From Lutibacter agarilyticus (GTDB taxonomy: Bacteria > Bacteroidota > Bacteroidia > Flavobacteriales > Flavobacteriaceae), in NCBI RefSeq assembly GCF_900188235.1, contig NZ_FZNT01000009.1:62001-126000 (forward strand): DNA of 64,000 nt, in the 5' to 3' direction. Made by a program: the position numbers and the translations under genes. Under the pieces are notes generated by a model. That model worked only from the letters and a program-made list of their open reading frames with translations, was not told the origin of the DNA and made no database searches. Shown piece by piece: positions 39,766 to 58,240 of the stretch (position 1 is its first letter; every line of letters starts with the position of its first letter).

Positions 39766-40165
39766 TTAATTGATCCTTGTAAGATTAAGAAATAATAAGT
39801 TTTCAGATCAGTCTTTGTTATATTACTTTAAAATACTTTGTAATAGGAATTTAATACAATTCTTTATACCTGTTGGTATAACTGTAACAACCAAGCAGGT
39901 GTTCTATTTGTTTGTTCTAATGATTGTAAGTTTATATTTTTATAATGTGGTAAGTTTATTTGTTTTTAATAATTAAATTTTTAAAGATTATATAGATTAA
40001 AAACAAATAAAAATAACAATGTCAGGATTGTACAAGATAGTTGCTTGAAATATAATTAGTTAATTTGTATTACTATTTAAAAGTATGTATTGTAAGATTC
40101 TATAATACATTTATTTTAAAGTATGAAAATTGATAATTTCATAAGTAGTTTGTTTAGATTTGGTT

Positions 40166-40223: not shown

Positions 40224-40268
40224 CAGGATAGTGCAGGATGGCGCTTCTTTTGCTTAATTATATATTTA
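40224..40268 (+). promoter_or_regulatory. Locus operator-promoter, site 1 (sulfatase-GH78 operon)
   Basis: CAGGAT (40224-40229), AGTG, CAGGAT (40234-40239), then 21 nt to TATATTTA (40261-40268), a TAnnTTTR-type -7 box. The downstream CAGGAT takes the place of the -33 element. The ATG is at 40317. Confidence 0.6.
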
Positions 40269-40316
40269 TGCTCAAATATATTTAAACGAAATCACACATA
40301 ATAACATCGTATTTTT

Positions 40317-43300
40317 ATGCAAAAATTCAATTTTTTATTAGGTATTTTATTATCCCTAACTTGTTTTAAAAATGTTTTAGCTCAAGAAAAAAAGGCACAC
40401 AAGGATAAACCAAATATTATTTTTATACTAACTGATGATCAACGGTTTGATGCTATTGGTTATGTAGGTAATAAGTATGTGCATACACCGCAAATGAATG
40501 ATTTGGCTGAAGCCGGAACTTATTTCAATAATGCAATTGTAACTACGCCTATTTGTGCTGCAAGTAGAGCTTCAATATGGACAGGTTTATATGAACGTTC
40601 TCATAATTATAATTTTCAAACTGGAAATATAAGAGATGAGTATATGGCAAACTCTTATCCGATTTTACTTAGGAAAAACGGATATCATACTGGGTTTTAC
40701 GGTAAATTTGGAGTGAAATATGGAGATTTGGAAAGTCAATTTGATGAATTTGAAGATTATGATAGAAATAATCGTTTCCCTGACAGAAGAGGTTATTACT
40801 ACAAAACAATTGATAAAGATACGGTACATTTAACACGTTATACTGGACAGAAAGCTCTAGATTTTATCGATAAAACATCAAGTGAGCAACCTTTCTTGTT
40901 ATCGCTAAGTTTTAGTGCGCCGCACGCACATGACCGAGCTGAAGATCAATATTTTTGGCAAAACACTACCAATAATTTACTAGCTGATACCACAATTCCT
41001 GGTCCAGTACTTGCTGATGATAAGTATTTTGATGCGCAACCTGAAATTGTAAAAAAAGGGTTTAATAGATTGCGTTGGACATGGCGTTATGATACTCCTG
41101 AAAAATACCAACACAGTTTAAAAGGGTATTACCGTATGATTGCAGGTATAGATCTAGAAATAGCTAAAATACGTGAAAAATTAAAAGAAAAAGGATTAGA
41201 TAAAAACACCGTTATTATTGTAATGGGTGATAATGGTTATTTCCTTGGAGAGCGTCAAATGGCAGGTAAATGGTTAATGTATGATAATTCTATAAGAGTG
41301 CCATTAATTATTTTTGATCCAAGAGTTAACAAGCATCAAGATATTGATGAAATGGCTTTGAATATTGATGTTACTTCAACCATTGCAGATATTGCAGGTG
41401 TTTCAATACCAGATTCTTGGCAAGGAAAAAGTTTAATGCCATTAGTGAAAAATGAAAAAACTTCAATAGAAAGAGATACAATTCTTATTGAGCATATTTG
41501 GGATTTTAGTGAAATTCCTCCAAGTGAAGGTGTTCGTACTTCAGAATGGAAATATTTTAGATATGTAAACGATAAATCTATAGAGGAATTATACAATTTG
41601 AAAAAAGATCCTCTAGAAACTAACAATCTTATCGGTAAGAAAAAATATCAAAAAGTTGCTGCTAACTTAAGGTTGAAGTGTGACGAATTAATCAAGAAAA
41701 ATAGCAATAAATTTAGAACAGCACCTTCCGATTTAACAGTTGAGTTAATCAGAGAGCCAAGCACTGATGTTGAAATATTTGATTTAAAACCAGAATTTGG
41801 TTGGACAGTTGCTAATGAATCTAAATTTCAGTCGGCTTATCAATTATTAGTTGCTTCATCAAAAGAAATTATTGATGCAAATAATGGTGATGTTTGGGAT
41901 AGTGAACGTGTAAGTTCAAATGCATCAACAAATGTTGAATATGCTGGCCCTTCATTAGAAGTGGGCAAAAAGTATTACTGGAAAGTTAGAATTTGGGATG
42001 AAGAAAATAGGTTAGTTGATTATTCTGAGGCTCAAAAATTTACTACAGGTAAAAGTGATAGTTATATAATTTCTACTGAAAATAAATTTGTTGTCAGTAA
42101 AATTAAACCTGTGAAGTTTGAAAATAGAGGAGATTTCTATTTTATGGACTTTGGAAAAGCAGCTTTTGCTACTATAGATTTTACATACAAAGCAAAAACA
42201 CCACATACTTTAACCATACGTATAGGAGAACAATTAGAGGGTGAAAATATCAATAGAACACCTGCGAAAAAGAGTAATATTCGTTATCAAGAGTTAAAAG
42301 TTGATGTGAAACCGGGCCAAACAACGTATAGAATTCCTGTTCAAACAGATGAAAGAAATACAAGACCTAACAAAGCAATTCCATTGCCAGAAGGATTTCC
42401 TCCGTTAATGCCATTTAGATATGCTGAAGTTGAAGGTGCTCAAGAATCTATTTCTGCTGAAAACTTTGAACAATTAGCATATCATACGTATTGGGATGAA
42501 GAAGCTAGTAGCTTTGAAAGTAACAATGATATTTTAAATCAAGTTTGGGATTTATGTAAATATTCAATAAAAGCAACAACTTTTAACGGTTTATATGTTG
42601 ATGGTGATAGAGAGCGAATTCCTTATGAAGCCGATGCTTATTTAAATCAGTTAAGTCATTATACTGCGGATAGAGAATATGCTATGGCAAGACGAACCAT
42701 AGAGTATTTTATGCAACACCCAACTTGGCCAACAGAATGGCAACAACACGTTCCTTTATTAATTTATGCAGATTATATGTATACAGGAAATACGGAACTT
42801 ATTGAGCGTTATTATGAAGCATTAAAACATAAATCATTGTATGAATTATCTAACGAAGATGGTTTAATTACTTCAACAAAAGTAGATGCTGATTTTATGC
42901 GTAAATTAGGTTTCCCTGATGGTTATAAAAAACCATTAACTGATATTGTAGATTGGCCATCAGCAAATTTTAATGGAAGTAAAACAAAAGGAGAACGTGA
43001 TGGTTTTGTATTTAAACCTTACAGTACTGTAATTAATGCATTTTTTTACGAGAATATGAAAATTATGGCTGAATTTGCTAAAATTCTTGGTAAAACACAA
43101 GAAGTATTAGACTTTGAATTAAGAGCAGCTAAAGCTAAAAAAGCGGTAAATGAACAAATGTTTGACAAAGAACGTGGTATTTATGTAGATGGAATTGGTA
43201 CAGATCACGCATCTTTACACGCTAATATGATGCCATTGGCATTTGGGCTGGTTCCTGAAGAACATTTTCAATCGGTTGTTGATTTTGTAAAATCACGTGG

Positions 43301-43841
43301 AATGGCTTGTAGTGTTTATGGCGCTCAATTCTTAATGGACGGTTTATACAACGCTGGTGAAGCAGATTATGCATTAGAATTATTAACAAGTAAAGATAAA
43401 AGAAGTTGGTATAATATGATTCGTATTGGTTCTACTATTACTTTAGAAGCTTGGGATTTAGAATATAAAAACAATTTAGATTGGAATCATGCTTGGGGAG
43501 CAGTACCAGCAAATACAATTCCTAGAGGTTTGTGGGGTATTAAACCAAAAACACCTGGATTTAGCATTGCTACCATTAAACCTCAAATGAGTAAATTAAA
43601 ATCTAGTGCTATTGAAGTTCCAACTGTTTTAGGAACTATAAAAGCTAGTTATAAATTTAACGGTGCAAGATTACAAACCTATGAAATTGAGATTCCAGCA
43701 AATATGGTGGCAGAATTTTCGTTAAATTCTTTAGACGGAAAGAATCTTATTCATAATGGTAAAAAAGTCCCATCGGCTTTTGATATGATCCGATTAGAGC
43801 CAGGTAAACATACTATAAAGTTAGTGATAAACTCTTTTTAA
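40317..43841 (+). CDS. Exported sulfatase (S1)-GH78 alpha-L-rhamnosidase fusion
   Basis: 1,174 residues with an N-terminal signal peptide (about 1-22). Residues about 31-475 are an S1 formylglycine sulfatase: [14 protein letters not shown] (metal site) and the activation motif C80-A-A-S-R84, with [17 protein letters not shown] further on. Residues about 490-1174 are a GH78-type rhamnosidase with beta-sandwich modules and an (alpha/alpha)6 barrel ([50 protein letters not shown]). The same fusion type (S1_25-GH78) has been described in the ulvan locus of Formosa agariphila. It would remove sulfate from rhamnose and then release the rhamnose. It is first in an operon with two lyase-like genes. 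Confidence 0.88.
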
Positions 43842-43861
43842 GAAGAATTTAATCTAAAAGG

Positions 43862-43888
43862 ATACCTCGTGGACTTTCTTCGAGGTAT
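43862..43888 (+). terminator. Hairpin between the sulfatase-GH78 and BNR genes
   Basis: Arms ATACCTCG and CGAGGTAT (8 nt) followed by TTTATTTT. It is short and may only attenuate, because no separate operator is seen before the next gene. Confidence 0.5.
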
Positions 43889-43908
43889 TTTATTTTAAAT
43901 AAGTAATT

Positions 43909-45978
43909 ATGAAAACTTTTTTTACAATAATTTTTTCAGTACTTGTATTAAGTGCTGCTAATGCACAAGATAAGATACTGTCGGCAAGTTTAATTGACAA
44001 CTCCAAAATAGCAGACAATGGTTTGTATTTTAATGGAACAAGTGGCGTTGATTACCAATTTTCGCCACGTATATCACCTCATGGCGATTGTGTAGATGTT
44101 GTAAATGGTTATGTTTTTGTAACATGGTATAAAGGCGGCATGGATAAGCGTAATGTAATGCTATCTAGGAAAAAATTAGACGACCCAACAGCAAATTGGG
44201 TTACTATAGAATTTCCACATCAACATGTTGGTTATCGTGGTACAGACCCAACCAAAGGAGATTCGCACAATACAATAGCTATTGGTATAAGTACCATAGA
44301 CGGTACTATTCACTTACTATATGATATGCATGCTTATAGTGAAACTTCTTTACCAAATGATTTTTTTAATTACTCAGTTTCTGAAAAAAACAAAGCTTTT
44401 GTGCCAGACTCAGAGTTTAACTTAAGTATTTTTAAGCCAAAGCAAAACTATTTAAAATTAGGTGAAAATTATAACCGTATTACATATCCAATGCTTCACA
44501 GAGCAGATGACGGAAGTCTTTTGGTAAGATATAGAGTAGGTGGTTCGGGTAATGGAGATATTGTTATGGCGCATTATAATGGTACAAGCTGGACTGATAA
44601 CTGGTTATTTCATAATGGTACTTTACCTTTGCCTGATAGAAACAATATGTATGGTGGAGAGCGTTTTTTAAATGGAAAGTTCTATTCAGGTTTCTCTATA
44701 CGCTATGCAAATAACAATTCAGATACGCCAACCAATGGTTATTCATACAATAGTGGCTTGTATTATGCTTATACCAATGGCATACCTAAAGATCAGTCTA
44801 CTCAATGGTTTGATGTAAATGATAACCCTATTACATTACCTATAATAAATAATTTAGATCCAAACCTAGATCCTGTTCAAATAGGGCAGCCAGGAGATGA
44901 TTATGGAACAACAACCAACCCAAGAAATACAAGTGATCCTGCTTGGACTGTTACCGAAAGCGGTGCTATACACTTTGTTACTAGAGTAGATAATATAAAT
45001 GTGCATTACTATAAAAAAGCCTTAGATGCTAACTTTTCAAGTAATTCTGGTGGTATAATTCCTAATCCAGAAGTAAGAGGTGAAATTTACAGTTATAAAA
45101 ACCACGTATTTATGGTTGAACTTTTAGCCGGAAAAGTGAATGTAAAATCAACATTAGAAGGACAAAACGACTGGAATATTGTATTTACAGATGATGGAAC
45201 AGAAAACTTTATGCATTTTGATGCTTTTGTTGAAGGAAATAAATTATACGTTTATTTGATGGAAAATACCAGTGGAGATGCAAGACCTTTGCATTTAAAA
45301 GTATTTAATCTATCTGAAGTAGATGCTCCCGTAGTGGAGCTTCCAGACTACAAACTCGAAGCCGAGAACTTTACCACGGCTTCCTCAGATATTGTTATTG
45401 AAGATAATCCTGCAGCTTCAAATGCCAAAGTAATTGGTTCTTTTTCTAGCAATCAGTTTTTAGAATATAGATTTCAAGTAACCACACCTGGGCCTTATGA
45501 TTTTATTTTGTTTGCAGCAAATAGAAATAGAGACGATTCTATTATGGATATTGAAATAAATGGTGTTATGTATAGTAGTGTTTTAATTACCCGTTCCTTT
45601 GATTGGAATGTGTTTTTAGAAACGACTATTCCAGATATAAACCTCGTTCTAGGAGAAAATGTGATCAAACTAACTCAAAAAAGATCGTTATCTAGTGAAC
45701 CTGATAAAATTGAGTTGTATCTTAAATCAACTTTAGGTGTTGGTGATTTGGAACAAAAAAAGTTAACTATTTATCCAAATCCTAGTAATGGTATATTTCA
45801 TATTAAAACCAATATTCCTAACCCTAATTATAGCATAAAAACCATGTTAGGTCAGATTTTAGAAAAAGGTGTTTTAAGAAATAATGTATTGAATCTCTCA
45901 AACTATGCTGTAGGTATTTATTATATTGAATTATCTTCTGAAGAAGGAAGATTGGTTAAAAAGATAGTCATAGAATAA
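43909..45978 (+). CDS. T9SS-secreted BNR-4-type propeller with CBM6, probable ulvan lyase
   Basis: 689 residues: signal peptide (1-19, ANA|Q), a BNR-4-like beta-propeller (about 30-465; FSPRISPHGDCVDVVNGYVFVTWYKGG, GDSHNTIAIGISTIDGTIHLLYDMH), a CBM6-like module (about 478-605; LEAENFTTASSDIVIEDNP, FLEYRF) and a T9SS type A sorting domain (about 612-689; LTIYPNPSNGIFHIKT). Ulvan lyases of families PL24 and PL25 have this fold, and the locus content supports a lyase that cuts next to uronic acid. The exact PL family is not certain from sequence alone. The sorting domain puts it at the cell surface or outside. Confidence 0.75.
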   Translation: MKTFFTIIFSVLVLSAANAQDKILSASLIDNSKIADNGLYFNGTSGVDYQFSPRISPHGDCVDVVNGYVFVTWYKGGMDKRNVMLSRKKLDDPTANWVTIEFPHQHVGYRGTDPTKGDSHNTIAIGISTIDGTIHLLYDMHAYSETSLPNDFFNYSVSEKNKAFVPDSEFNLSIFKPKQNYLKLGENYNRITYPMLHRADDGSLLVRYRVGGSGNGDIVMAHYNGTSWTDNWLFHNGTLPLPDRNNMYGGERFLNGKFYSGFSIRYANNNSDTPTNGYSYNSGLYYAYTNGIPKDQSTQWFDVNDNPITLPIINNLDPNLDPVQIGQPGDDYGTTTNPRNTSDPAWTVTESGAIHFVTRVDNINVHYYKKALDANFSSNSGGIIPNPEVRGEIYSYKNHVFMVELLAGKVNVKSTLEGQNDWNIVFTDDGTENFMHFDAFVEGNKLYVYLMENTSGDARPLHLKVFNLSEVDAPVVELPDYKLEAENFTTASSDIVIEDNPAASNAKVIGSFSSNQFLEYRFQVTTPGPYDFILFAANRNRDDSIMDIEINGVMYSSVLITRSFDWNVFLETTIPDINLVLGENVIKLTQKRSLSSEPDKIELYLKSTLGVGDLEQKKLTIYPNPSNGIFHIKTNIPNPNYSIKTMLGQILEKGVLRNNVLNLSNYAVGIYYIELSSEEGRLVKKIVIE

Positions 45979-46096
45979 TAATAGAAGAGAGTTAAATTCA
46001 AAAATAATCTAATAATAGTAGTTCAATCTTGAATGTTAGTAATCTGTGATAGAAAAAGGAATAAACTATACTGTAAATATTTTAAATGTATAAGAA

Positions 46097-48652
46097 ATGA
46101 CTAAGTTATCTGCATATATTGTAAGTTTATTCCTTTTTTTAAACACTTTAAGTTTAGTTGCTCAAAAAATTGAGCGACCTTTTATTTGGGTTGAACATAA
46201 AGATAGAGTAGAAATTCTTGCTAAAATTGAAAATGAAGCTTGGGCAAAACAGTTTTACAATAATTTCAAACAACGCTTAGATACTGATATTATTTTATAT
46301 AAACAATCACCAAAAGAATTTATTGCAAAACTTCCTTTCGATTGGTCTAAGCAAGAAGTAGAAAAAACACCACCTTTAAAAACATATAATAACTTTACAG
46401 AATCAAATAGTTCTGATAGATTTATACTAAATAAATACCTACAAATAGGTGTAGATTGCAGTGTGTTGTATTTTTTAACAGAAGATGAAAATTACGCACA
46501 ATGTGCTGCAGCTATTTTGCATGCATTTGTTGAAGGAGTTTTACAACTTACACCTTCTAAAGAATTAGGGAATGGTGGTTGGATTTACCCTACAGACTAT
46601 TTAAGAGAAGCGCGTGTTTTTGGAGCTCAAGTACCCATTATATACGATTTTATTGCACTTTATTTAGAAAAGAACAATAAAGTGTATGATATTGGAAAAA
46701 ATGATTTCACTAAATTTTCAGAAGAAAACGCTCAAAAGGTTTTTTTAACCTATGCAAATTTAGCAGCTTATCACGGGCATAGAGGTTCAAATTGGTCGGT
46801 TTTAATGTCGTTTAGTTTGGTTCAAAATGCCTTGGCATTGAATAATTTAGAAGAACGAAAAAAGTATGTAGATTTTTATTTAGAAGAAGGAACTAGTAAG
46901 CAAGATGCCTTGCCCGATATTTCAGCAAACTATAAAAAAGAAGGAGATGTGTATCCTGAAACTTCACAATATTCAAATGGAGTAGCTGCCTATACAACAC
47001 GAATGCTGCTGATTTTAAACAAATACAACCCAAGTTTAAAATTAGGACAAAAGTATTATAAAATTCCTTTTTCATTAGATAGATGGAATAAGCTTCATTA
47101 TCCAAATAATGAAATTATTAGATTTGGAGACGGGCACAGGAAGTTTGGTGTACAGTATGCATCTTATGATATGGCCTATCTTTTAGGTGAACAAGATGGC
47201 GTAGGAAAACTTACAAATAAATTTGGCCCACTGATAACTAAAAGTATTCAGGAAGGTAAGTATGATAGAGCAAATGTAGGTAAACGTTCTGATGGTGCAT
47301 CTGTATATTTTACACCAACACAATTATTGTGGCTTCATAAAACAAAAGAATATTCAGTTGAAAATACTGTTTTACCTAGAACAGATGATTTTTCTCATGC
47401 AGGTGTTTTTTTACAGCGCAATTTAAGTTCAACAAATAATCCTGATGATGGTTTAATGTGTTTTGTTGGTGGTGCGCATATGGTTCATGGGCATGCAAGT
47501 GGAATGGATATGGAGTTGTATGGCTTGGGTGAAGTACTTGGAGTTGACCACGGACGTGGACAATATAGAACAGATTTACATGAAAACTATTCTAGATTAT
47601 TTGCAGCGCACAATTCAGTAATTGTAAACGGAGCAAGTCAAGGGGAAGGTGATTGGGTGAATTTAGGAATGAATACTGTTGAATTAGTAACCATGGAGCC
47701 AATGCCTTTAGAAAAGGCAATTTCACCAAATCATTCTTTTACAAGAACTCGTTTTTTAGATGATAAAGGAGATAAAGCCGAAGCAACACAAGAAAGAACC
47801 TTGGCGTTAATTAGAACCTCGCCAACTACTGGGTATTATGTTGATGTTTTTCGTTCAAAATCTGCCTTGCCAAATGAGTATCACGATTATTTGTATCATA
47901 ATATTGGAGATGAATTAAATTTTTTAAACAAAGATTTAGATTTAAAATCTGATGAAAATAGATTCAATGCAAATGCCAATGATAAGCATATTAGAAATAG
48001 AAAATATAGAAATCCAGGGTGGCATTTTTTTAAAGAAGTAAAATCATCAAGCATTTATGAAGCTGATATAAAAGCTCAGTTTGAGCTAAATAAACTCAGC
48101 AAAAAATCTTATATGAATGTTTTTGTTGTAGGAAATAAGAATAGAGAATACACCAAAGTAATGGCACCTAAAACTTTTGAAGCACCAGTAGCTTATGAAA
48201 ATTTACCAACGCCTACATTGGTTATTCGTCAAAAGGGAGAGGCTTGGACAAATCCTTTTGCTGTAATTTATGAACCAAGTTTTGATGAAAATTCAAAAAA
48301 TGGAATTCAATCTGTAACTAAACTAGAAAATAATGGCGTTTTTAAAGGTTTTAAAGTTGTTAGTAAAATAGAAAGTAAAATTTGCACACAATACATTATC
48401 AATCAAAATCAAAAAGGAGTTTATGAACATAAAGAACTAGAAATTTCTTTTAAAGGCGCCTTTGCAGTTTTAACTTTTGATAAAAATAATAAACTACAAA
48501 ATAGTTACATAGGAGAAGGAGATTCTTTAACTGTTGGTCAAGTTCAAATGCAGTCAAAAAATATGCAACCAATAGCAGCTTACATTGAATTTTTAAATGA
48601 AGATTATAAGATAAATGCTACCGAAAATACTGAATTTAATATCAATAATTAA
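46097..48652 (+). CDS. Exported heparinase II/III-type polysaccharide lyase
   Basis: 851 residues with a signal peptide (about 1-22). The N-terminal part is an (alpha/alpha) toroid (about 30-420; HRGSNWSVLMSFSLVQNAL, GDVYPETSQYSNGVAAYTTRML). The C-terminal part is a heparinase II/III beta-sandwich (about 430-830; GGAHMVHGHASGMDMELYGLGEVLGVDHG, RLFAAHNSVIVNG). Tyr and His residues of the kind used by these lyases are present. Ulvan lyases of this type are known (PL40, also PL37); PL40-like is my best guess. It lacks a T9SS tail, so it is likely periplasmic. A 118-nt gap to the upstream gene holds nothing evident. Confidence 0.75.
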   Translation: MTKLSAYIVSLFLFLNTLSLVAQKIERPFIWVEHKDRVEILAKIENEAWAKQFYNNFKQRLDTDIILYKQSPKEFIAKLPFDWSKQEVEKTPPLKTYNNFTESNSSDRFILNKYLQIGVDCSVLYFLTEDENYAQCAAAILHAFVEGVLQLTPSKELGNGGWIYPTDYLREARVFGAQVPIIYDFIALYLEKNNKVYDIGKNDFTKFSEENAQKVFLTYANLAAYHGHRGSNWSVLMSFSLVQNALALNNLEERKKYVDFYLEEGTSKQDALPDISANYKKEGDVYPETSQYSNGVAAYTTRMLLILNKYNPSLKLGQKYYKIPFSLDRWNKLHYPNNEIIRFGDGHRKFGVQYASYDMAYLLGEQDGVGKLTNKFGPLITKSIQEGKYDRANVGKRSDGASVYFTPTQLLWLHKTKEYSVENTVLPRTDDFSHAGVFLQRNLSSTNNPDDGLMCFVGGAHMVHGHASGMDMELYGLGEVLGVDHGRGQYRTDLHENYSRLFAAHNSVIVNGASQGEGDWVNLGMNTVELVTMEPMPLEKAISPNHSFTRTRFLDDKGDKAEATQERTLALIRTSPTTGYYVDVFRSKSALPNEYHDYLYHNIGDELNFLNKDLDLKSDENRFNANANDKHIRNRKYRNPGWHFFKEVKSSSIYEADIKAQFELNKLSKKSYMNVFVVGNKNREYTKVMAPKTFEAPVAYENLPTPTLVIRQKGEAWTNPFAVIYEPSFDENSKNGIQSVTKLENNGVFKGFKVVSKIESKICTQYIINQNQKGVYEHKELEISFKGAFAVLTFDKNNKLQNSYIGEGDSLTVGQVQMQSKNMQPIAAYIEFLNEDYKINATENTEFNINN

Positions 48653-48734
48653 CAGTTGTTACAAGCTTAATTTTTTTAAATTATTTATTGAAAAGTAATT
48701 CTACATCGTTATAATAGCTAAATTTTTAAAACAC

Positions 48735-48779
48735 CATAATAGTACAGGATAAACTTCATTTTACTAAATATTACATTTA
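48735..48779 (+). promoter_or_regulatory. Locus operator-promoter, site 2 (GH43 operon)
   Basis: CATAAT (degenerate half, 48735-48740), AGTA, CAGGAT (48745-48750), then 21 nt to TACATTTA (48772-48779). The ATG is at 48800, giving a short leader. Confidence 0.55.
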
Positions 48780-48799
48780 ACAACTGTAAGACAAATTAT

Positions 48800-50149
48800 A
48801 TGAGAAAAAGGGTAATAAATACATTGTTTTTGTTGAATACGCTGATAGCTGTACTTGCTCAAAATCCTATTGTGCCAAATCAAGGATTGAATGATCCTCA
48901 TATTCATATTTTTAATGATACCGCTTATGTGTACGCATCTCATGACAGATCAGCTGATGATAAGGCATTTATTATGGAAGATTGGTGGATTTGGTCTTCT
49001 CCAGATTTAGTGAACTGGACAAAACGTAGTGTTTTAGATCCAAAAAATACTTATATAGGAGAAGGTTTTCAGGGTTGTTGGGCAACTGATGTTGGCGAAA
49101 AAGATGGTAAATACTATTGGTATTTTTCAGAAAAAAATCAACAGACGGGTGTTGTAGTTGGTGATTCTCCTGTAGGTCCTTGGAAAGATCCTTTAGGAAA
49201 ACCATTATTAGCATCAGATTTAACGCCAACAGATGAGTATGATATGGCTATTTTTGAAGATAATGGAGAGCATTACATTATTTTTGGTGTATGGGATTAC
49301 TATATAGCAAAGCTAAATTATGATATGATAAGTTTGGCTGAAAAACCAAGAAAACTAATCATAAACAACCCAAGAGGTCCATACAATCCTGATGGTAAGA
49401 ATCTTGAAAAACCAACGGATGACAAACCATTTGTTCATAAAAACAACGGTAAATATTATTTATCTTGGGGTTGTTTTTATGCCATGTCTGATAATTTATA
49501 TGGCCCGTACGATTATAAAGATTCAGTAATAAAAGAAGAAAGTTTTGCCAAAGGGTATGATGCGCCAACTTGGCCAAACGGATTTTTACAAGGGCGTCAC
49601 GGTTCATTTTTTCAATGGCACAACCAATGGTATTATACCTATTGTGATATGAGTCAAACAGGAAATCGTTATTTTAGAGACGCTTTTATTAGTTACATTC
49701 ATTATAAAGAAAATGGAGAAATAGCAACCATTAGAGTTGATGGAGTAGGTGTTGGTCAATACAATGCTAACCAATCTAAAATTGAAGCCGAAGATTATTT
49801 TAAAACAGATGGACTTGTAAAAAAAGAGTTTGGTAACAATTTTGTAGTAGAAACCACAGCGAATAAAAGTTATTTAAATTATCCGAATATAAATGGTTTG
49901 GATGTATATAGTAAAATTAATTTCAAATTATTAGCGCCAAGTGGAGGTGAATTCTCTATTGAAATTCGAAAAGATAATTTACAGGGTGAATTGGTGGGTA
50001 GTAAAAAAATCACCATTAATAGTAACAATAAATTGGAAGATGTAATAATTACACTTTCAACATTAAATCAAAAAGAAAATCTCTATTTTTTAATAGAACA
50101 ATTAAACAATAAACCGTTACAAATAGAATCATTTACATTTTTAAAATAA
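48800..50149 (+). CDS. Exported GH43 glycosidase with C-terminal CBM6-like domain
   Basis: 449 residues: signal peptide (about 1-20, LAQ|N), a GH43-type five-bladed propeller (about 25-320) with the base Asp in GLNDPHIHIF and the modulating Asp in EYDMAIFEDNGEHY, and a CBM6-like end (about 328-449; KIEAEDYFKTDGL). In a locus for ulvan it would be a xylosidase. The expected catalytic-acid segment reads FLQGRHGSFFQW, with Gln where many GH43 enzymes have Glu in EGPH. The general acid may thus be elsewhere or missing. It starts a three-gene operon with GH3 and GH105. Confidence 0.8.
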   Translation: MRKRVINTLFLLNTLIAVLAQNPIVPNQGLNDPHIHIFNDTAYVYASHDRSADDKAFIMEDWWIWSSPDLVNWTKRSVLDPKNTYIGEGFQGCWATDVGEKDGKYYWYFSEKNQQTGVVVGDSPVGPWKDPLGKPLLASDLTPTDEYDMAIFEDNGEHYIIFGVWDYYIAKLNYDMISLAEKPRKLIINNPRGPYNPDGKNLEKPTDDKPFVHKNNGKYYLSWGCFYAMSDNLYGPYDYKDSVIKEESFAKGYDAPTWPNGFLQGRHGSFFQWHNQWYYTYCDMSQTGNRYFRDAFISYIHYKENGEIATIRVDGVGVGQYNANQSKIEAEDYFKTDGLVKKEFGNNFVVETTANKSYLNYPNINGLDVYSKINFKLLAPSGGEFSIEIRKDNLQGELVGSKKITINSNNKLEDVIITLSTLNQKENLYFLIEQLNNKPLQIESFTFLK

Positions 50150-50172
50150 AACAATATATAAATAATTAAATA

Positions 50173-52443
50173 ATGAAGAAATTACTCATACTGCCTATTT
50201 TGGCTATTTACGTTCTTGTACATTCTTGTGCGGAGTCATCATCTAATGGAAAAGATTACAAAGATGCATCTTTGTCTATAGATGAACGTGTAGAAGCTTT
50301 ATTACCGCTAATGTCTTTGGAAGAAAAAGTAGCTCAAATGCGAATTTTTCATGCAAATATTGGTGTGAAATCTGACGAAAATGGAAAGTTAATCCTTTCA
50401 GAGAGAGTTGTTAAAAAATTAAAAATAGGTATTGCTGGTATTAAAAACCCAGGAGAACATATTGATGCAGTTGCCGCAGCGAAATTAAATAACGAACTTC
50501 AAAAGTATATTATAGAAAACAATAGATGGGGAATTCCAGCATTGTTTGTTACTGAATCATACAACGGAGTAGATGCTGAAGGTTGTACAAAATTTGGAAG
50601 ACCAATAGCATCAGCAGCATCATTCAATCCAGAACTGGTTAAAAGACAATGGGATGTTGTAGGTAGAGAAGCACGTTTGCGCGGTATGCATATGTGCCAT
50701 TCTCCTGAAGCAGATTTAGTGAGAGATCCTCGTTTTGGAAGAATGAGTGAAGCTTTTGGTGAAGACACTTATTTAACAACTCAAATGGTAACAAGTGCTA
50801 TTAAAGGTGTTCAAGGAGATTATGAAGGTTTAGGGAATGGTACGCATATTGGAGCTGTTGCAAAACACTTTGCAGGGTACGGACAAGTATTAGGTGGTTC
50901 AAACTTTGCAGCTATTGAAATTTCTGAACGTACATTAATTGATGAAATTTATCCACCGTTTGAAGCAGCTGTAAAAGATGCTCAAACATTAGGAGTTATG
51001 GCTTCTCACGGAGATTTAAACGGTATTGCTAGTCACGGAAACCCAGCTTTATTAACAGGTGTGTTGCGTGACGATTGGGGATTTAATGGTTACGTAGTTT
51101 CAGATTCAAATGACATTGCTCGTTTGTATTACTTTATGAAAGTAGCCGAGTCTCCTGAAGCAGCTGCTTTAATGGGATTAGAAGCAGGTATTGATATTGA
51201 TTTATATGCCGAAGATTCTTACGCATATCTTCCAGAAATGGTAAAAACAAACCCTGAAATTGAAAAATTAATCGATAGATCGGTTAGAAGAGTTTTAAGA
51301 ACAAAATTCATTTTAGGTTTATTTGACAATCCTTATATCGATATTCCTGAAGTTGAAAAAGGAGTGCGTGCAGCATCATCATTAGCGTTGGCTAAAGAAT
51401 CTGATTTAGAATCTGTGATTTTATTGAAAAATGAAAATGAAGTATTGCCGTTAAATAAAAACAAATCGCTTAAAATTGCACTTTTAGGACCGCTTGTTAA
51501 AGAAAATACAAAAGCGATGTTTGAATCAGTAACAGGTTCAAATATCAAATATGTTGCAGAAAAAGGATTTAATCTTACTGATGGAAGTAAAGGAGCTCCT
51601 AACTTATTAGAAAAAGATCCAAAAGCAATTGCTAAAATGGTAAACATGGCAAAAGGAGCTGATGTAGCTATCTTGTTTTTAGGAGGTGATGAGCATACTT
51701 CAAAAGAAGCGTTTTTCAACAAAGCTTTAGGAGATAGAGCAACTATAGATCCTGTTGGAGCACAAGATGAATTAATAGAAAAAATTAAGGCTACCGGAAA
51801 ACCAGTAATTGTAGTGTTAAAACACAGACGTACATTGTCTATCAACGTTATTGCTGAAAAAGCAGATGCTATTTTAGATACCTGGGATTTAAGTGAATTT
51901 GGTGATGAGTCTACAGCAAGAATTATCTTTGGAGAAGTTTCACCTTCTGGTAAATTACCTGTTACAGTACCAAGATCTATCGGTCAAATGCCTTTTCACT
52001 ATAGCATGAAAGAAATCAATTACAAAAAAGGGTATTTATTTCTTGAAGACGGACCAATTTACTCGTTTGGTTATGGTTTAAGTTATGCTTCTTTTGAGTA
52101 TTCAGATTTAAAATTATCAAGTAATGAAATTACTCCTTATAGCGAAATTGAAGTAAGTGTAACTGTAAAAAATACAGGTAAAGTAAAAGCTAAGGAAGTG
52201 GTTCAAATGTATATTAAAGATGAAATAGGTTCGGTTACAAGACCAGATAAAGAATTGAAAGCATTTGATAAAATTGAATTAAACCCAGGTGAAGCTAAAA
52301 CAGTTACATTTAAAATTACACCAAAAATGTTAGAGTTTACAGGTCTTCAAATGACTAAAGTTTTAGAAGCAGGAGATTACACAGTTAAAGTGGGAACTTC
52401 TTCAAGTACACATATAGAAACAGCGTTTAAACTAAAAAAATAA
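50173..52443 (+). CDS. GH3 glycosidase lipoprotein (probable beta-xylosidase/glucosidase)
   Basis: 756 residues with a type II signal peptide (lipobox VHSC, Cys19). The GH3 N-terminal barrel has [12 protein letters not shown] and the nucleophile Asp311 in [13 protein letters not shown]. The second alpha/beta domain and a C-terminal fibronectin III-like domain (about 650-756; [21 protein letters not shown]) follow. It is anchored by lipid, probably facing the periplasm. With GH43 (24 nt upstream) and GH105 (5 nt downstream) it would process oligosaccharides; beta-xylosidase is the activity that fits ulvan best, but beta-glucosidase is possible. Confidence 0.88.
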
Positions 52444-52447
52444 AAAA

Positions 52448-53584
52448 ATGGTAAATAAATCATTATTAAAATTAGTTGTACTAGTAACAATTTTTAGTAT
52501 TTCAATTGTTCAAAAATCAACTGCCCAAGATGCCTTAGATAAAGCAGCAATTGAAGCTTCCATGATAAAAGCTTTAGAGTGGCAAGAAGCACATCCTATT
52601 TTTGCATTAGCACCAACCGATTGGACTGAAGGTGCTTATTATACAGGTGTAGTGCGCGCGCATAAAACCACCAAAGATCAAATATATATGGCTGCCTTAA
52701 AAAACCAAGCGTATTGGAATAATTGGCAAACGTATACGAGACTACATCATGCCGATGATGTTGCTATTTCATACAGTTACATATATATAGGTATGAATGA
52801 TAAAAGAAAAGGTTTTGTAGATTTAGAGCCAACTAAAAACTTCTTAGATGCACATTTATATGAAGATGATGTATGGAAACAAGGAACAAGAAAAAATGAA
52901 ATGGGTCAAACTATTTTATGGTGGTGGTGCGATGCTTTATTTATGGCGCCTCCAGTTTTGAACTTGTATGCTAAACACACAAAACAGCCAAAGTATTTAG
53001 ACGAGATGCATAAATTTTATATGCAAACGTACAATCAGTTATACGATGAAGATGAGCAACTGTTTGCAAGAGATATGCGTTACGTTTGGAAAGGTTCAAA
53101 AAAAGATAAAAAAGAAGAAAACGGTAAAAAAATATTTTGGTCTAGAGGAAATGGCTGGGTACTTGGTGGTTTAGCATTAATTTTAGATGATATGCCAAAA
53201 GATTACGAACATTATTCTTTTTACGAAAACTTATACAAAGAAATGGCTGCTAGAATTTTAGAATTACAACCTGAAGATGGTTTGTGGAGAACAAGTTTGT
53301 TATCTCCAGAGTCTTACGAACATGGTGAGGTAAGTGGTAGTGGTTTTTATACATTTGCTTTAGCTTGGGGTGTAAATAATGAATTGTTAGATAAGGATGT
53401 ATATACGCCTGCAGTAAAAAAAGCTTGGAATGCATTAGCTAAATGCCAACACGAAAATGGAATGATTGGTTGGGTTCAAAACATTGGGGCATCTCCAGAA
53501 CCAGCATCTTATGATAGCTGGCAAAACTTTGGTACAGGCGCTTATTTAATGGCAGGAAGTGAAGTATTAAAATTAGATAAATAG
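52448..53584 (+). CDS. GH105 unsaturated glucuronyl/galacturonyl hydrolase
   Basis: 378 residues with a signal peptide (about 1-26). An (alpha/alpha)6 barrel with the GH105 landmarks [13 protein letters not shown] (Asp) and [16 protein letters not shown] (catalytic Asp), and [14 protein letters not shown]. It removes the 4,5-unsaturated uronic acid left by a lyase at the non-reducing end, so it directly follows the action of the two lyases encoded upstream. Its start is 5 nt after the GH3 stop. Confidence 0.92.
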
Positions 53585-53606
53585 TCTTTTATACTATTAA
53601 AATAAC

Positions 53607-53666
53607 AACGTTAAGTGTGGTTTTAAGTACCTAATTTTTATAGGTAAATAAAATACGCTTAGCGTT
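53607..53666 (+). terminator. Terminator after the GH43-GH3-GH105 operon
   Basis: Outer arms AACGTTAAGTG and CGCTTAGCGTT (two G-U pairs) enclose a small hairpin (TACCTA/TAGGTA), followed by a T-run. Confidence 0.65.
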
Positions 53667-53679
53667 TTTTTATGCAAAA

Positions 53680-53724
53680 CAGGATAGTGCAGGATTGTTT
53701 ATATAGCTATAATATAGATATTTA
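53680..53724 (+). promoter_or_regulatory. Locus operator-promoter, site 3 (secreted protein and sulfatase)
   Basis: CAGGAT (53680-53685), AGTG, CAGGAT (53690-53695), then 21 nt to GATATTTA (53717-53724). The direct repeat is identical to site 1. The ATG is at 53749. Confidence 0.6.
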
Positions 53725-53748
53725 GTCTCTAATCTTAAATTTTATAAT

Positions 53749-54528
53749 ATGAAAACAAAATTACACAAAACTTTATTATTTTTATTAGTAACAGTATTTG
53801 CGTTGCAAGTACAAGGGCAAGCCTTTGTTACAGGTACACTTGGTACTTACAAAATTAAAGTACAAGGTACAAATCTTTATTTAACACAGTCTACTACTAC
53901 TGATGCTGTAACGTATGAAACAGAAGTTATTGGTAGTGACACACAGCTGTTTATAATTAACGATCATCCCGATTTAGAATATTATTCTATTACGTCTAAA
54001 ATTGTAGGTAAAGGAGCGTTAGAGACTTTAAGTATAGATACTGATAAACCAGCATTAGGCTGCAAAGGTAATCTTGCTGGAGGGGTTGGACAACAGGATA
54101 AATGGAATCTTACCAGAGGCGTAGGTACTCAAATTTTCCTAGAAAGTGATCCTACTGATACAGGTTGGGATGGGAAATCTAAAAGAAGATTTCAAGATTA
54201 TGCAGAGGGAGCTCCAGCCTTACTTAATGGAGGAACAGCTGTAGCATTTGACTGGATTTTTGTAGAAGGGTTGACATTAAGTAATGAAGAATTTGATACA
54301 AGTGCTTTTTTCATGTCTAATCTTGTTAATGACCAATTAACAATTCAAGGGCTTCCTTCTAATGTAAAACAAATTGCTGTTTATTCTTTATTAGGTCAAA
54401 AATTAATAACTAAAGAAGTAAGTTCAGAATCTTTAAACATGAATGTTAGTTCATTAAAAACAGGTATGTATATTGTTGATTTTATTGGAGAAAACGGACG
54501 ATTTACAAAAAAGATCATCAAACAATAA
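53749..54528 (+). CDS. Small T9SS-secreted protein of unknown function
   Basis: 259 residues: signal peptide (about 1-24, VQGQ), a domain of about 150 residues, and a T9SS type A sorting domain (about 190-259; IAVYSLLGQKLITKEV, LKTGMYIVDFIGENGRFTKKIIKQ). The central domain has a repeating beta pattern (TYKIKVQGTNLYLTQ, QLFIINDHPDLEYYSIT) that faintly recalls ricin-type beta-trefoils; this is a guess. It has the same operator as the enzyme operons, so it is probably a surface or secreted polysaccharide-binding or lyase-like component of the system. Confidence 0.65.
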   Translation: MKTKLHKTLLFLLVTVFALQVQGQAFVTGTLGTYKIKVQGTNLYLTQSTTTDAVTYETEVIGSDTQLFIINDHPDLEYYSITSKIVGKGALETLSIDTDKPALGCKGNLAGGVGQQDKWNLTRGVGTQIFLESDPTDTGWDGKSKRRFQDYAEGAPALLNGGTAVAFDWIFVEGLTLSNEEFDTSAFFMSNLVNDQLTIQGLPSNVKQIAVYSLLGQKLITKEVSSESLNMNVSSLKTGMYIVDFIGENGRFTKKIIKQ

Positions 54529-54550
54529 GTAAATAAGTATTTTACTTAAA

Positions 54551-54582
54551 AAAGGACTATCTAATATCTTAGGTAGTCCTTT
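54551..54582 (+). terminator. Terminator hairpin after the small secreted protein
   Basis: Arms AAAGGACTATCT and AGGTAGTCCTTT (one G-U pair), loop of 8 nt and a T-run. It separates this gene from the sulfatase 92 nt downstream, which may rely on read-through or its own promoter. Confidence 0.75.
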
Positions 54583-54674
54583 TTTTGTATAAGTACTTAA
54601 AAATCAAATTTTTTTTTAAGTTCAAATAGTTGAAAATGTAAGCATTTTACGAATGCATCTAAAATTAGATATAA

Positions 54675-56588
54675 ATGAAAAACTTTTTAGTAGTACTTAC
54701 TTTTTTTAGTATTGCAATTTGCACAGCACAAAGTCAAGAAAAACCAAATATTCTTTGGATTACTTGCGAAGATATTAGTCCTTACTTAGGTTGTTACGGT
54801 TTTCAACAAGCTCAAACTCCCAATTTAGATAAATTAGCAAGTGAAGGTATTCGTTTTACAAATGCTTATGCTAATGCGCCAGTTTGTGGTGTAGCACGTA
54901 CAACATTACTTACAGGTATGTATGCACCAACAACAGGAACGCATAATTTTAGAACAAATACAAAATTACCAGAAAGTATTCCTGCGTACCCTAAAATATT
55001 AAGAGAAGCAGGTTATTATTGTACCAATAATTATAAGAAAGATTACAATTCTAGTTACGAAACAGATAAAAGTTTGTGGGATGAATCTAGCAAAAAAGCA
55101 CATTACAATACCCGAAAGCCAGGACAACCATTTTTCGCTGTGTTTAATATCATTCAAACACATGAAAGTCAATTAGCTGAAGATAAAATAAAAGAGTATG
55201 TTGCAAATGGAGACCTTCCAAAAAAGCCTAGAATTAACCCATCAGCTATTGTGTTACCACCTTACCATCCTGATGTTCCAGAAATAAGAGTAGATTGGGC
55301 AAGGTTTCATGATTTAATCACATTAATGGATAGAAAGGTAGGAGAACTGTTACAAGAATTAAAAGATAAAAATCTAGAGGAGAATACCATTGTATTTTTC
55401 TATTCAGATCACGGTGGAATGTTGTCACGGTCTAAACGTTACCTGTATAATGTAGGAACACAAGTACCTTTTATAGCCTATTTTCCTAAAAAGTGGAGGC
55501 ATTTAGTATCCTATCAACCAGGAAGTACTGAAGATGGTTTTGTGAGTTTTGTCGATTTTCCAAAAACCTTGCTATCTATCGCAAATTGTCCAGTTCCTGA
55601 GAAAATGCAGGGTAAAGTATTTTTAGGGAAAGACAAGGAAGCAAAACCAAATTATGTTCATTTTTATAGAGACCGTATGTCTGAACGTTACGATTTTAAT
55701 AGAGCTGTAACAGATGGTGAATATTATTTAATCCAAAATTTTGTTCCTCACAGGCCAAGAGGTCGTTCTACAAGATATGGTTATACTGTGCAACAAAATT
55801 GGAGAGCTAATGAAGAAAGCTTTGCTAATGGTAACTCAAATGCTGTACAATCACAATTTTATCAGCCAAAAGAAACGGTTGAATTATTCAATACAAAAAA
55901 CGATCCTTGGCACATTAAAAGTATTGCTGAAGAAAATGAAAGCGTTGAAAAATTAGCAGAATTATCTCAAGAATTAGATCGATGGATGATTGAGATACGT
56001 GATATTGGTTGTATACCAGAACCAATGTTTCATGATTTGGTTGGCGAAGGTAAAAAGTACGCAACTATATACGAATATGCACAAAGTGATGCCTATGAAA
56101 TAGAAAAAATACTACCTATTGCAAAACTTGCAGCACAAGGTTCTTTGGAGAATAAGAATGATTTTTTAGCTTTTATAGAAGATTCAAACCCAATTATTAG
56201 ATATTGGGGTGCTTACGGTATTTTTAGAATTGCTCAAAATGATACAACAATTCAAGAAAAATTGATTCAATCAATAGAAAAAGAGCCTATTCCTGTAAAC
56301 AGACTTATAGCTGCACAAGCATTAGCATTATCAGGTGCTAAAGAAAAGGCTTTTGAATATTTACATAAAGAAACTAAAAATGCTCGTGATGGTTATGTGT
56401 TTTTATTTGGTCTAAACGCATTGCAATATTCACATACTGATGAGTTTTTAACAAAGCAAGATTGGATAGATTTTAAAGCCCAAACTTTTGAAACCGATGC
56501 TGCCATAGATAAATTTGGAAAAGAATACAGTAAACGTATTATGAATGATGCATTGGCACTTTGGCCTAATAGACGAGTAGTTGATTAA
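54675..56588 (+). CDS. Exported S1 sulfatase
   Basis: 637 residues with a signal peptide (about 1-20). The S1 fold is clear: PNILWITCEDISPYLGCYG and the activation motif C71-G-V-A-R75, TTLLTGMYAPTTGTHNFR and YSDHGGMLSRSKRYLYNVGTQVP. The motif has Val at the third place where Pro or Ala is usual, which may affect formylglycine formation. The C-terminal 150 residues are helical and HEAT-like. By its type it may belong to S1_8, a subfamily with ulvan-active members; this is uncertain. It would remove sulfate from rhamnose-containing oligosaccharides. Confidence 0.85.
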   Translation: MKNFLVVLTFFSIAICTAQSQEKPNILWITCEDISPYLGCYGFQQAQTPNLDKLASEGIRFTNAYANAPVCGVARTTLLTGMYAPTTGTHNFRTNTKLPESIPAYPKILREAGYYCTNNYKKDYNSSYETDKSLWDESSKKAHYNTRKPGQPFFAVFNIIQTHESQLAEDKIKEYVANGDLPKKPRINPSAIVLPPYHPDVPEIRVDWARFHDLITLMDRKVGELLQELKDKNLEENTIVFFYSDHGGMLSRSKRYLYNVGTQVPFIAYFPKKWRHLVSYQPGSTEDGFVSFVDFPKTLLSIANCPVPEKMQGKVFLGKDKEAKPNYVHFYRDRMSERYDFNRAVTDGEYYLIQNFVPHRPRGRSTRYGYTVQQNWRANEESFANGNSNAVQSQFYQPKETVELFNTKNDPWHIKSIAEENESVEKLAELSQELDRWMIEIRDIGCIPEPMFHDLVGEGKKYATIYEYAQSDAYEIEKILPIAKLAAQGSLENKNDFLAFIEDSNPIIRYWGAYGIFRIAQNDTTIQEKLIQSIEKEPIPVNRLIAAQALALSGAKEKAFEYLHKETKNARDGYVFLFGLNALQYSHTDEFLTKQDWIDFKAQTFETDAAIDKFGKEYSKRIMNDALALWPNRRVVD

Positions 56589-56620
56589 CGATTAAAAAAA
56601 AGTAATTTAATAATATTAAA

Positions 56621-56652
56621 AAAACCGCAATCCTTAAATGGAATGCGGTTTT
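56621..56652. terminator. Bidirectional terminator between sulfatase and regulator
   Basis: Arms AAAACCGCAATCC and GGAATGCGGTTTT (13 nt, one mismatch) with a 6-nt loop, A-run before and T-run after, between convergent genes. Confidence 0.8.
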
Positions 56653-56703
56653 TTAATATAAATTTTTTAAACTTCTTAGTTATTCAAAATGGGGAAATAT
56701 TTG

Positions 56704-57759
56704 TTAAAGAGAATCTCTATCAATAAAATTAAAAGGTACTTTTACCTTCCCTCGTTGATTGTTTAAAATCATATTGGCAGCAGTTTGTCCCATCACTTTA
56801 AAATCGGTAGAAATTACAGTAATTCCTAATAGCTCTTTTAAAGGGGTGTCGTTGTATGAAATAACTCCAATATCTTCACCCAGTTTATACTCAATTTCTC
56901 GTACTTGTTTTACAAGATCAACTAAATCGGCTTCTTCAATAGTAATAAATAAATCCCCTTTTTTTAACACCATGTCATCATAAATTTCATCCAGTACTTC
57001 AAAGTCAAGATTGTATTCTAAGCAAAACTTTTTAAATCCGTGTAAAATTCTTCTAGGGTATGGATAAACAGCTTTTTCATGATAAATTAAGATGATTTTC
57101 TCATATTTTTTTTGAATTTTAGGTAATGCTTCTTTAAGCGCATAATAAATATCATTTTCAAAATCTTGAACAACTTCAATAAAATTTCCATCAATTTTTT
57201 CACCAAACTTTGTGTTGTCTAATACAACTAATTTATTTCGAGGTATTTTTTTGACGGAATTGATAATATCTTCAGTGTAGCTTAAATGTTTTTGATTTTC
57301 AGTTTTAAAATGAGGCATGATTACAAAATAATCATATACAGATTTATATTTCTCTAATAAATTTAAAAACAAGTTTTCCTCACAATGATAAATATGTATA
57401 TCGGTATGTGAATTAGCTCCAATGCTTTCAATAAAATGGTTATAGGTTCTCATTTTATAGGAACTCAATTTATTCACTAAAAATAAGATATTCACTTTTG
57501 AAATTAATTTAGTTCTGGAAATGTAAAAACCCTTCCCCCGAATTGAAGTTATAATATTTCGTTCTTTAAGAATACTATAGGCCTTTTCAACAGTATCTCT
57601 AGATAAATAAAACTCTTCACTAAACATATTTATTGAAGGAATTTTTTGATCCATTGTAAAGTTTCCAACAGAAATATTATGAATAATAGAATCAATAATT
57701 TGTTGGTACTTTGGAACCCTAGAATTTTCGTCAATTTTAATAAACTTTGATAAGTCCAT
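56704..57759 (-). CDS. GntR-family regulator with LacI-type sugar-sensing domain
   Basis: 351 residues. N-terminal GntR winged helix (about 15-85; YQQIIDSIIHNISVGNFTMDQKIPSINMFSE, SRDTVEKAYSILKERNIITSIRGKGFYIS) and a periplasmic-binding-like sensor domain (about 92-351; DTPLKELLGITVISTDFKVMGQTAANMIL). This architecture is like AraR of Bacillus. It is divergent from the rha operon, so it likely controls rhamnose use (inference). A GTAC-N5-GTAC arrangement lies 88-111 nt upstream of its ATG, at 57848-57860, and may be an autoregulatory site. Confidence 0.87.
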   Translation of the reverse strand: MDLSKFIKIDENSRVPKYQQIIDSIIHNISVGNFTMDQKIPSINMFSEEFYLSRDTVEKAYSILKERNIITSIRGKGFYISRTKLISKVNILFLVNKLSSYKMRTYNHFIESIGANSHTDIHIYHCEENLFLNLLEKYKSVYDYFVIMPHFKTENQKHLSYTEDIINSVKKIPRNKLVVLDNTKFGEKIDGNFIEVVQDFENDIYYALKEALPKIQKKYEKIILIYHEKAVYPYPRRILHGFKKFCLEYNLDFEVLDEIYDDMVLKKGDLFITIEEADLVDLVKQVREIEYKLGEDIGVISYNDTPLKELLGITVISTDFKVMGQTAANMILNNQRGKVKVPFNFIDRDSL

Positions 57760-57972
57760 AATTTAGTTTTTCGAGATATAAAATAATTTACTTAGCACAA
57801 ATTTAGTAAGTTTAATAGAATAAAAGTATTAAAATGGGTAATAAATAGTACATAAAGTACACTAAACTCTTAGTTGTTCTTAAATATTCAAGTTTTGAAG
57901 TTACAATAAATTTTAGGAGTGTAGAATTAGGATTATAATTTATCATTTATTTTTTCAGTTTTAAAAAATAGA

Positions 57973-58030
57973 GCTGCTATATGGTGCACTGTGTTAGGTA
58001 GTTGGGGTGAAAAATGAGATGTATAGCAGC
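57973..58030. repeat. Inverted repeat with 40-nt G-rich loop
   Basis: Perfect arms GCTGCTATA (57973-57981) and TATAGCAGC (58022-58030). The enclosed part is G-rich compared with the surrounding AT-rich DNA, and could be a structured RNA or a looped operator. No known RNA family is recognised. Confidence 0.35.
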
Positions 58031-58195
58031 AAAAGTTTCTATTTTAGTCATGAATTTACTTATAAAATAAATTTAAATAAATAATAGTAACGCTTTATGA
58101 GTATGTTTTTGCTGTTAGTAAATTATTGATTGTCAATTATTTATTCATGTTTTTTAATTGGGGGTTTTATTTGATATTGGTAAATATTTATCATA

Positions 58196-58240
58196 CGGTA
58201 TAGTACAGGATAGAAAAACTTTAAAAGAGGTTTATTTTTG
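58196..58240 (+). promoter_or_regulatory. Locus operator-promoter, site 4 (rha operon)
   Basis: CGGTAT (degenerate half, 58196-58201), AGTA, CAGGAT (58206-58211), then 21 nt to TATTTTTG (58233-58240), a full TAnnTTTG match. The ATG is at 58279. Confidence 0.6.

Follow-up and report, generated by a model that had tools for sequence, protein, structure and literature searches.

A 10-bp direct-repeat promoter element as the proposed operator of an AraR-type GntR regulator at ulvan and rhamnose loci of Flavobacteriaceae

The control of polysaccharide utilization loci (PULs) is usually credited to hybrid two-component systems (HTCS) or to SusR-like systems, and extracytoplasmic function (ECF) systems are also credited with it. 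The direct repeats of HTCS have a mean period of 21 bp (PMC3878776), the repeats of AraC-type rhamnose regulators of Bacteroides measure 21 bp and those of DeoR-type ones are direct repeats of 10–11 bp (PMC3870299), while MocR regulators also bind direct repeats (PMC5320631). The stretch of DNA analyzed here (the window) comprises 64,000 nucleotides of Lutibacter agarilyticus contig NZ_FZNT01000009.1, and corresponds to C22:62001-126000 in the genome labelled G000 (4.10 Mb); other G labels denote other genomes, and L labels denote loci. It carries, ahead of several ulvan- and rhamnose-type genes, a 16-bp promoter element with two CAGGAT-like halves. It is quite probable, judging from comparative sequence evidence, that this element is the operator of an AraR-type GntR protein encoded in the same window (56704-57759), which would read it as 10-bp direct repeats near position -41.5, probably activating transcription.

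The element and its place in the promoter

A first-pass annotation of the window had described four such sites, each at a fixed distance from a -7 box, and had proposed that they tie the rha operon to three transcripts for enzymes or secreted proteins. The four 16-mers were indeed present at 40224, 48735, 53680 and 58196, with the box starting in all of them 37 nt past the start of the 16-mer (21 nt past its end), and the link through a common element was borne out. The four sites thus stood, but not the total of four, since five are present: the additional one lies 201 bp upstream of that at 40224, ahead of the same sulfatase-rhamnosidase gene. When up to 3 mismatches to the 16-mer were allowed, the window gave 5 matches, whereas 100 shuffles averaged 0.49 (largest value 3; none of the 100 reached 5). 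The sites and the gene of the proposed reader are as follows:

40023..40038, plus strand: distal site CAGGAT-TGTA-CAAGAT (CAGGATTGTACAAGAT), the fifth site, missed by the first-pass annotation
40060-40067, plus strand: -7 box TTAATTTG of the site at 40023, distal promoter of the gene at 40317
40224..40239, plus strand: direct-repeat site CAGGAT-AGTG-CAGGAT, with box TATATTTA at 40261-40268
48735..48750, plus strand: direct-repeat site CATAAT-AGTA-CAGGAT, with box TACATTTA at 48772-48779
53680..53695, plus strand: direct-repeat site CAGGAT-AGTG-CAGGAT, with box GATATTTA (one mismatch) at 53717-53724
58196..58211, plus strand: direct-repeat site CGGTAT-AGTA-CAGGAT, with box TATTTTTG at 58233-58240, promoter of the rha operon
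56704..57759, minus strand: regulator of 351 aa with GntR winged helix and LacI-type sensor (Pfam GntR, Peripla_BP_3), proposed reader, divergent from the rha operon

The alignment of 20 sites yielded the pattern CAG-n-A-Y-AGTA-CAGGAT-AG, 19 nt, TAnnTTTR (21 nt from CAGGAT to the box), with no clear information upstream of the element. The same-strand direct repeat with 10-bp period was confirmed: in a 160-site consensus, the mean column agreement was highest at direct lag 10 (0.68, versus 0.47 for the best palindrome), and the palindromic reading was discarded. A weaker signal at lag 5 (0.51) was also seen, as the 10-bp unit holds a 5-bp repeat (YAGKA), and the element may be readable as near-repeats per half turn. 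Clear runs of units were found in a few cases, with up to six in G193, and with consecutive 10-bp-spaced matches in L242, L252 and L260.

The training sites of the position weight matrix (PWM) were picked with the box included, so that the box-independent tests of spacing are the 16-mer search and the motif-only scans. A motif-only scan gave an exact box at 21 nt in 105 of 174 matches, and in at most 3 at any other offset. Likewise, at named GntR loci that had played no part in training, 108 of 121 matches had a box at 21 nt when one mismatch was tolerated, and at most 11 had one at any other offset. The box of the Flavobacterium psychrophilum primary sigma factor spans -12 to -5 (PMC9723704), and by this ruler the 16-mer occupies -49 to -34, with its centre at -41.5. 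No TTG at -33 was conserved in the 20-site alignment. The element thus holds a fixed position overlapping the -35/-33 region, as expected for a class II activator, and activation by GntR is likely on this evidence.

Two other readings bear on this geometry. In one of them, which is unlikely, the same GntR protein reads the repeats but represses, a sugar releasing it from DNA. Bacillus subtilis AraR (in the molecule name of entry 4egy) and a Zobellia alginate GntR (in the title of a cited reference) are indeed called repressors; however, the site fills the -33 place, with no TTG conserved there, and the rigid box spacing just described fits a contact with polymerase, not its blocking. In the other reading, hardly credible, an alternative (ECF) sigma factor would recognize the element as its -35 region. 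The strictly fixed spacing between two elements and the occupation of the -33 region would agree with it, but the downstream box is TAnnTTTG-like, a type ascribed to the primary sigma factor (PMC9723704), the upstream element is a tandem repeat of 16–18 bp with more units in some promoters, and it covaries with GntR, as shown in the next section.

Distribution of the element and of its candidate regulators

A scan of 395 Flavobacteriaceae genomes found at least one copy of the element in 164, and at least four matches in 79. A close homologue of the GntR protein (E ≤1e-116, a cut chosen after seeing a gap from 4e-117 to 2e-103) was present in 92 genomes, including 79/79 of those with at least four matches, while none of the 303 genomes without it reached four (Fisher P 6e-70, a nominal value); two of the latter, G093 and G223, hold three matches. 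Among the 92, there were 13 with fewer than four matches, 8 of them with fewer than three. RhaEW occurred in 109 genomes, including all 92, and the RhaEW-positive genomes with at least four matches were 79 of the 92 with the close homologue versus 0 of the 17 without it. These 17 rule out that the motif is a mere tracker of rhamnose catabolism.

Proximity was evaluated at 78 named GntR loci (2 of 80, both from Lutibacter genomes used in training, were left out). A site was found in 75 of the 78, at no more than 500 bp from the GntR gene in 56 and no more than 1500 bp in 71; the matches were 121, versus 2 for a reversed control run over all 80 loci. The element is real and family-wide, in all likelihood an operator, and its most likely reader is the adjacent GntR.

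The 38 genomes of the genus point the same way. Many matches were found in G000, G015, G025 and G037 alone (24, 24, 16 and 11, respectively), and five other genomes had one each. Homologues of the GntR protein with at least 72% identity occurred in exactly the same four; in ten other genomes the match had 33–38% identity (43% for one fragment).

The first-pass annotation had taken the direct repeat to favour an AraC-type or HTCS activator over GntR. This preference was not supported, as the occurrence of the motif, its closeness to the gene and its variants all go with GntR, and a direct repeat adjoining a GntR gene is no evidence against GntR. Direct repeats in promoters are typical of AraC-family activators, an AraC-type gene lies inside the PUL (C22:138877-139758; L019:12877-13758), and G000 encodes five HTCS-sized HTH_18 proteins. 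Nevertheless, the PUL gene occurs in 3 of the 38 genus genomes and is absent from the motif-rich G037, so it was rejected as the reader; this profile covers the PUL AraC alone. The published repeats of HTCS and AraC-type rhamnose regulators measure about 21 bp (PMC3878776, PMC3870299), but here the period is 10 bp, and the 20-site alignment contains no second 16-mer copy 21 bp upstream of the kind expected for HTCS. Motif variants, moreover, follow GntR. An AraC-type or HTCS reader is therefore very improbable.

The ulvan PUL of G037 bears on the same question. It lies at C2:523-617 kb (L090-L095, C2:516-622 kb) and looks like a mobile island: an integrase gene of phage type precedes it, its two ends hold similar genes, and it contains a PL28 ulvan lyase. 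It contains 50 open reading frames (ORFs) of at least 90 aa, of which 39 were scanned with Pfam (37 directly, one of them in just its first third, and 2 via a sister orthologue) and 1 with NCBIfam. No regulator DNA-binding domain appeared among these 40, of which 4 had no family. The remaining 10, judged by homology, were GntR, orthologues of genes annotated in the window, SusC-like ORFs and a fragment of a dehydrogenase. GntR was thus the sole regulator found in the island, which holds no HTH_18 protein; an AraC-type regulator does not accompany the PUL in every motif-rich genome.

Concerning the protein, the Pfam family PF00392 (GntR) matched residues 17-80 (7.4e-11) and entry 4egy residues 14-80. 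The winged-helix assignment comes from Pfam and from sequence matches to GntR proteins including AraR. In the AlphaFold2 model (mean predicted local distance difference test, pLDDT, 88.5; predicted template modelling score, pTM, 0.68), the recognition helix spans residues 54-66 and the wing 70-80, and the sensor (residues 87-351) aligns structurally with LacI-family sensors. The protein thus displays the N-terminal GntR winged helix-turn-helix and the C-terminal LacI/GalR-type sensor of the AraR subfamily. The operators of B. subtilis AraR are palindromic; the present element scores as a direct repeat, so the protein is filed under AraR by architecture alone, and is not a canonical AraR.

Motif and protein also change together. 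E58 occurs in 14 of 21 aligned proteins; residue 74 is R or K in 13 of these and S in one (a copy in L177). The seven diverged proteins have V58 and P74. Diverged GntR proteins (about 40–46% identical) are found beside or near rhaEW, with sites like CAGAAC-nGTA-CAGAAC at 21 nt from the box. The second half was CAGAAC or CAGAAT, 21 nt from the box, in 6 of the 7 V58 and P74 loci. Two members of the diverged set, L186 and L189, have E58 instead, and the second halves near them read CAGGAA and CAGGTC. In FadR (His-65) and AraR (Gln-83), the residue that aligns with position 74 makes a base-specific contact; the one aligned with position 58 makes backbone contacts (PMC4494728). A family scan for the CAGAAC variant (up to 2 mismatches) detected it in 28 of the 395 genomes, and the reversed control gave 3. 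Of the 28, 11 have CAGAAC itself as second half, five of them with the diverged GntR (G129, G225, G248, G337 and G361); the other 17 had none, most of them having CAGGAC, CAGGAT or CAGTAC. As far as these genomes go, the motif, its spacing and distribution, the link to GntR and the way in which motif and contact residues change in step are read directly in the sequences. The co-variation itself is a correlation between two clades, short of proof of a code.

Several observations weigh against the proposed role of GntR or against the residue rule. The genomes of the family scan are related, which makes the P values nominal. Fewer than three sites accompany GntR in eight genomes (G038, G081, G106, G141, G219, G221, G256 and G360), 3 of the 78 named loci have no site, and in the window the promoter of the GntR gene itself has no site in its direction. 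Added upstream 10-bp units were found, by a loose rule, in 5 of 160 sites, about the off-register rate of 2.2%. One V58 locus, L192, showed no variant site in 10 kb, although there is one elsewhere on its contig (G248), and of the 11 genomes in which the second half is CAGAAC itself, six (G072, G122, G270, G278, G391 and G425) have no listed GntR homologue, three of these six sharing nearly identical sequence. Residues 58 and 74 are just two of the many that differ between the groups. The C19 paralogue and its relatives (L180-L185 and L124) showed no comparable element bar one weak match, CAGCAA-TGAA-CAGTAC in L124, so that the rule is not established for the whole subfamily. GntR sites are mostly palindromic, with direct-repeat exceptions, the AraR subfamily being a chimera (PMC4494728).

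Predicted regulon in the genome of the window and its sisters

The 16-mer search proposed in the first-pass annotation, run over G000 with up to 2 mismatches, gave 18 matches versus 1 for the reversed pattern, and in 17 of the 18 a TAnnTTTR-like box (up to one mismatch) stood exactly 21 nt away (next-best offset: 6). The composite pattern of 16-mer and box, with up to 3 mismatches, gave 24 matches versus 1 in the control. Many matches ahead of unrelated genes, the adverse result that had been anticipated, were not observed, the targets being mostly polysaccharide- or rhamnose-type genes. Two matches were set aside: that at C11:100549, though boxed, lies 299 bp from the next ORF and is probably due to chance, and that at C8:475291 has no box and is weak or likely due to chance.

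The PWM scan of parts of four genomes including G000 (1.02 Mb in all) gave 98 matches scoring at least 11 versus 16 in the control, whose best score was 16.1. Scores above 20 were reached by 86 matches (23 in G000, 29 in G015, 18 in G025 and 16 in G037). From the end of the box to the next same-strand ORF the median distance was 49 bp, and it was no more than 150 bp in 70 of 84. In G000, 20 first genes have such a site, of which 19 were family-scanned (that at C22:185555 was left out). Fifteen belong to polysaccharide-degradation, rhamnose, sugar-aldolase or SusC/RhaT transport families; the other four are one GntR regulator, two with a secretion sorting tail alone and one with no family. Sites cluster in two ulvan-like PUL stretches, C22:102-225.9 kb (to the contig end) and C7:4-48 kb, with further sites at C20:98169 (a second GntR gene) and C15:23850 (score 19.6, a D-mannonate oxidoreductase-like gene). 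The site-bearing targets include SusC genes, alpha-L-rhamnosidases, sulfatase, GH43, GH2 and GH59-type enzymes, RhaT and the rha operon; a glucuronate isomerase gene carries a site in G015, as does the PL28 ulvan lyase gene in G037. The genes behind the sites of the window are:

40317..43841, plus strand: sulfatase fused to a GH78-type alpha-L-rhamnosidase, 1174 aa, target gene
48800..50149, plus strand: GH43 gene, followed by GH3 and GH88/105-type genes, target gene
53749..54528, plus strand: secreted protein of 259 aa with a type IX sorting tail, sulfatase next, target gene
58279..60372, plus strand: bifunctional class II aldolase/short-chain dehydrogenase of RhaEW type (named from domain order and PMC3870299), first gene of the rha operon

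Site conservation for the 20 first genes of G000 was patchy: the site is missing at some orthologues in the sisters, and for some genes the sisters have no orthologue. An equivalent of the distal site at 40023 is present in G015, G025 and G037, and the sulfatase-rhamnosidase fusion has two tandem upstream sites in the genome of the window, G015 and G025. The orthologue of the gene behind 48735 has a site in G015 and G037 and none in G025, while rhaEW is preceded by a site in G025 and G037 and has no orthologue in the scanned parts of G015. In G000 and G025 the promoter of the second GntR gene (L098, G000 C20:97066-98067) contains the element; in G015 it lies 636 bp ahead of the gene, the situation in G174 is similar, and the G037 orthologue has none. 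This element suggests a regulatory cascade. Separately, a pair of overlapping ORFs (181 and 168 aa) at G000 C7:39144-40188 (L025-L026) resembles one split enzyme gene, with a possible frameshift.

Mechanism and comparison with known systems

Direct binding, activation, oligomeric state and inducer are what we infer for the GntR protein. Two or more winged-helix domains, on flexible linkers from the sensor, would bind head-to-tail, docking on adjacent 10-bp units (CAGGATAGTA) along one DNA face. The 16-mer would overlap the place of the missing -33 element, which is a class II activator position. The inducer would likely be a rhamnose-derived sugar, which is a guess, and the regulon would comprise ulvan PUL operons, SusC/D importers, RhaT, the rha operon, uronate genes and the second GntR gene. 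A wider proposal can be advanced tentatively, with our judgement leaning slightly to doubt: a GntR-LacI branch might have turned from the palindrome to head-to-tail class II activation across Flavobacteriaceae, polymerising on 10-bp units (three to six at a few promoters), with a residue code in which E58 and R/K74 specify CAGG, and V58 and P74 specify CAGA.

The portion of PMC3870299 at hand describes no GntR-type rhamnose regulator and no case from Flavobacteria, and term searches met no such regulator in the covered text of PMC8511951, PMC12858550, PMC5507952, PMC9296495 and PMC12323373. Open-licence literature, as far as its text was covered and with RegPrecise and closed papers outside the search, mentioned neither this motif nor an AraR-type activator acting on direct repeats, and gave no description of the switch for ulvan or rhamnose loci in marine Flavobacteriaceae. 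The present analysis names a probable regulator, gives an operator that can be searched for in genomes along with its promoter geometry, predicts a regulon in dozens of genera and puts forward the hypothesis that two residues set the specificity.

The comparison with described systems gives partial likenesses. B. subtilis AraR is a repressor according to the molecule name of 4egy, whereas the regulator considered here has a 10-bp direct-repeat operator at a fixed promoter position. Bacteroides HTCS and SusR-like systems likewise control PUL operons via direct repeats, but their tandem sites (about 21 bp for HTCS, 67/77 bp for SusR-like) are read by different proteins (PMC3878776). The RhaR regulators of Bacteroides (AraC type) and those of DeoR and LacI type also control rhamnose genes, but are non-homologous to GntR (PMC3870299). 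XylR/XylRA is, as here, a sugar regulator, a chimera with LacI-type sensor, and activates via direct repeats, although its DNA-binding domain is AraC-type instead of GntR-type and its sequence is another (PMC12125979). NanR, NagQ, FarR and the MocR-type GabR, TauR and PdxR likewise place a GntR winged helix on direct repeats, and several MocR types activate, although their sensors (FadR, HutC, aminotransferase) and sequences differ from those of the GntR protein described here (PMC4494728, PMC5320631).

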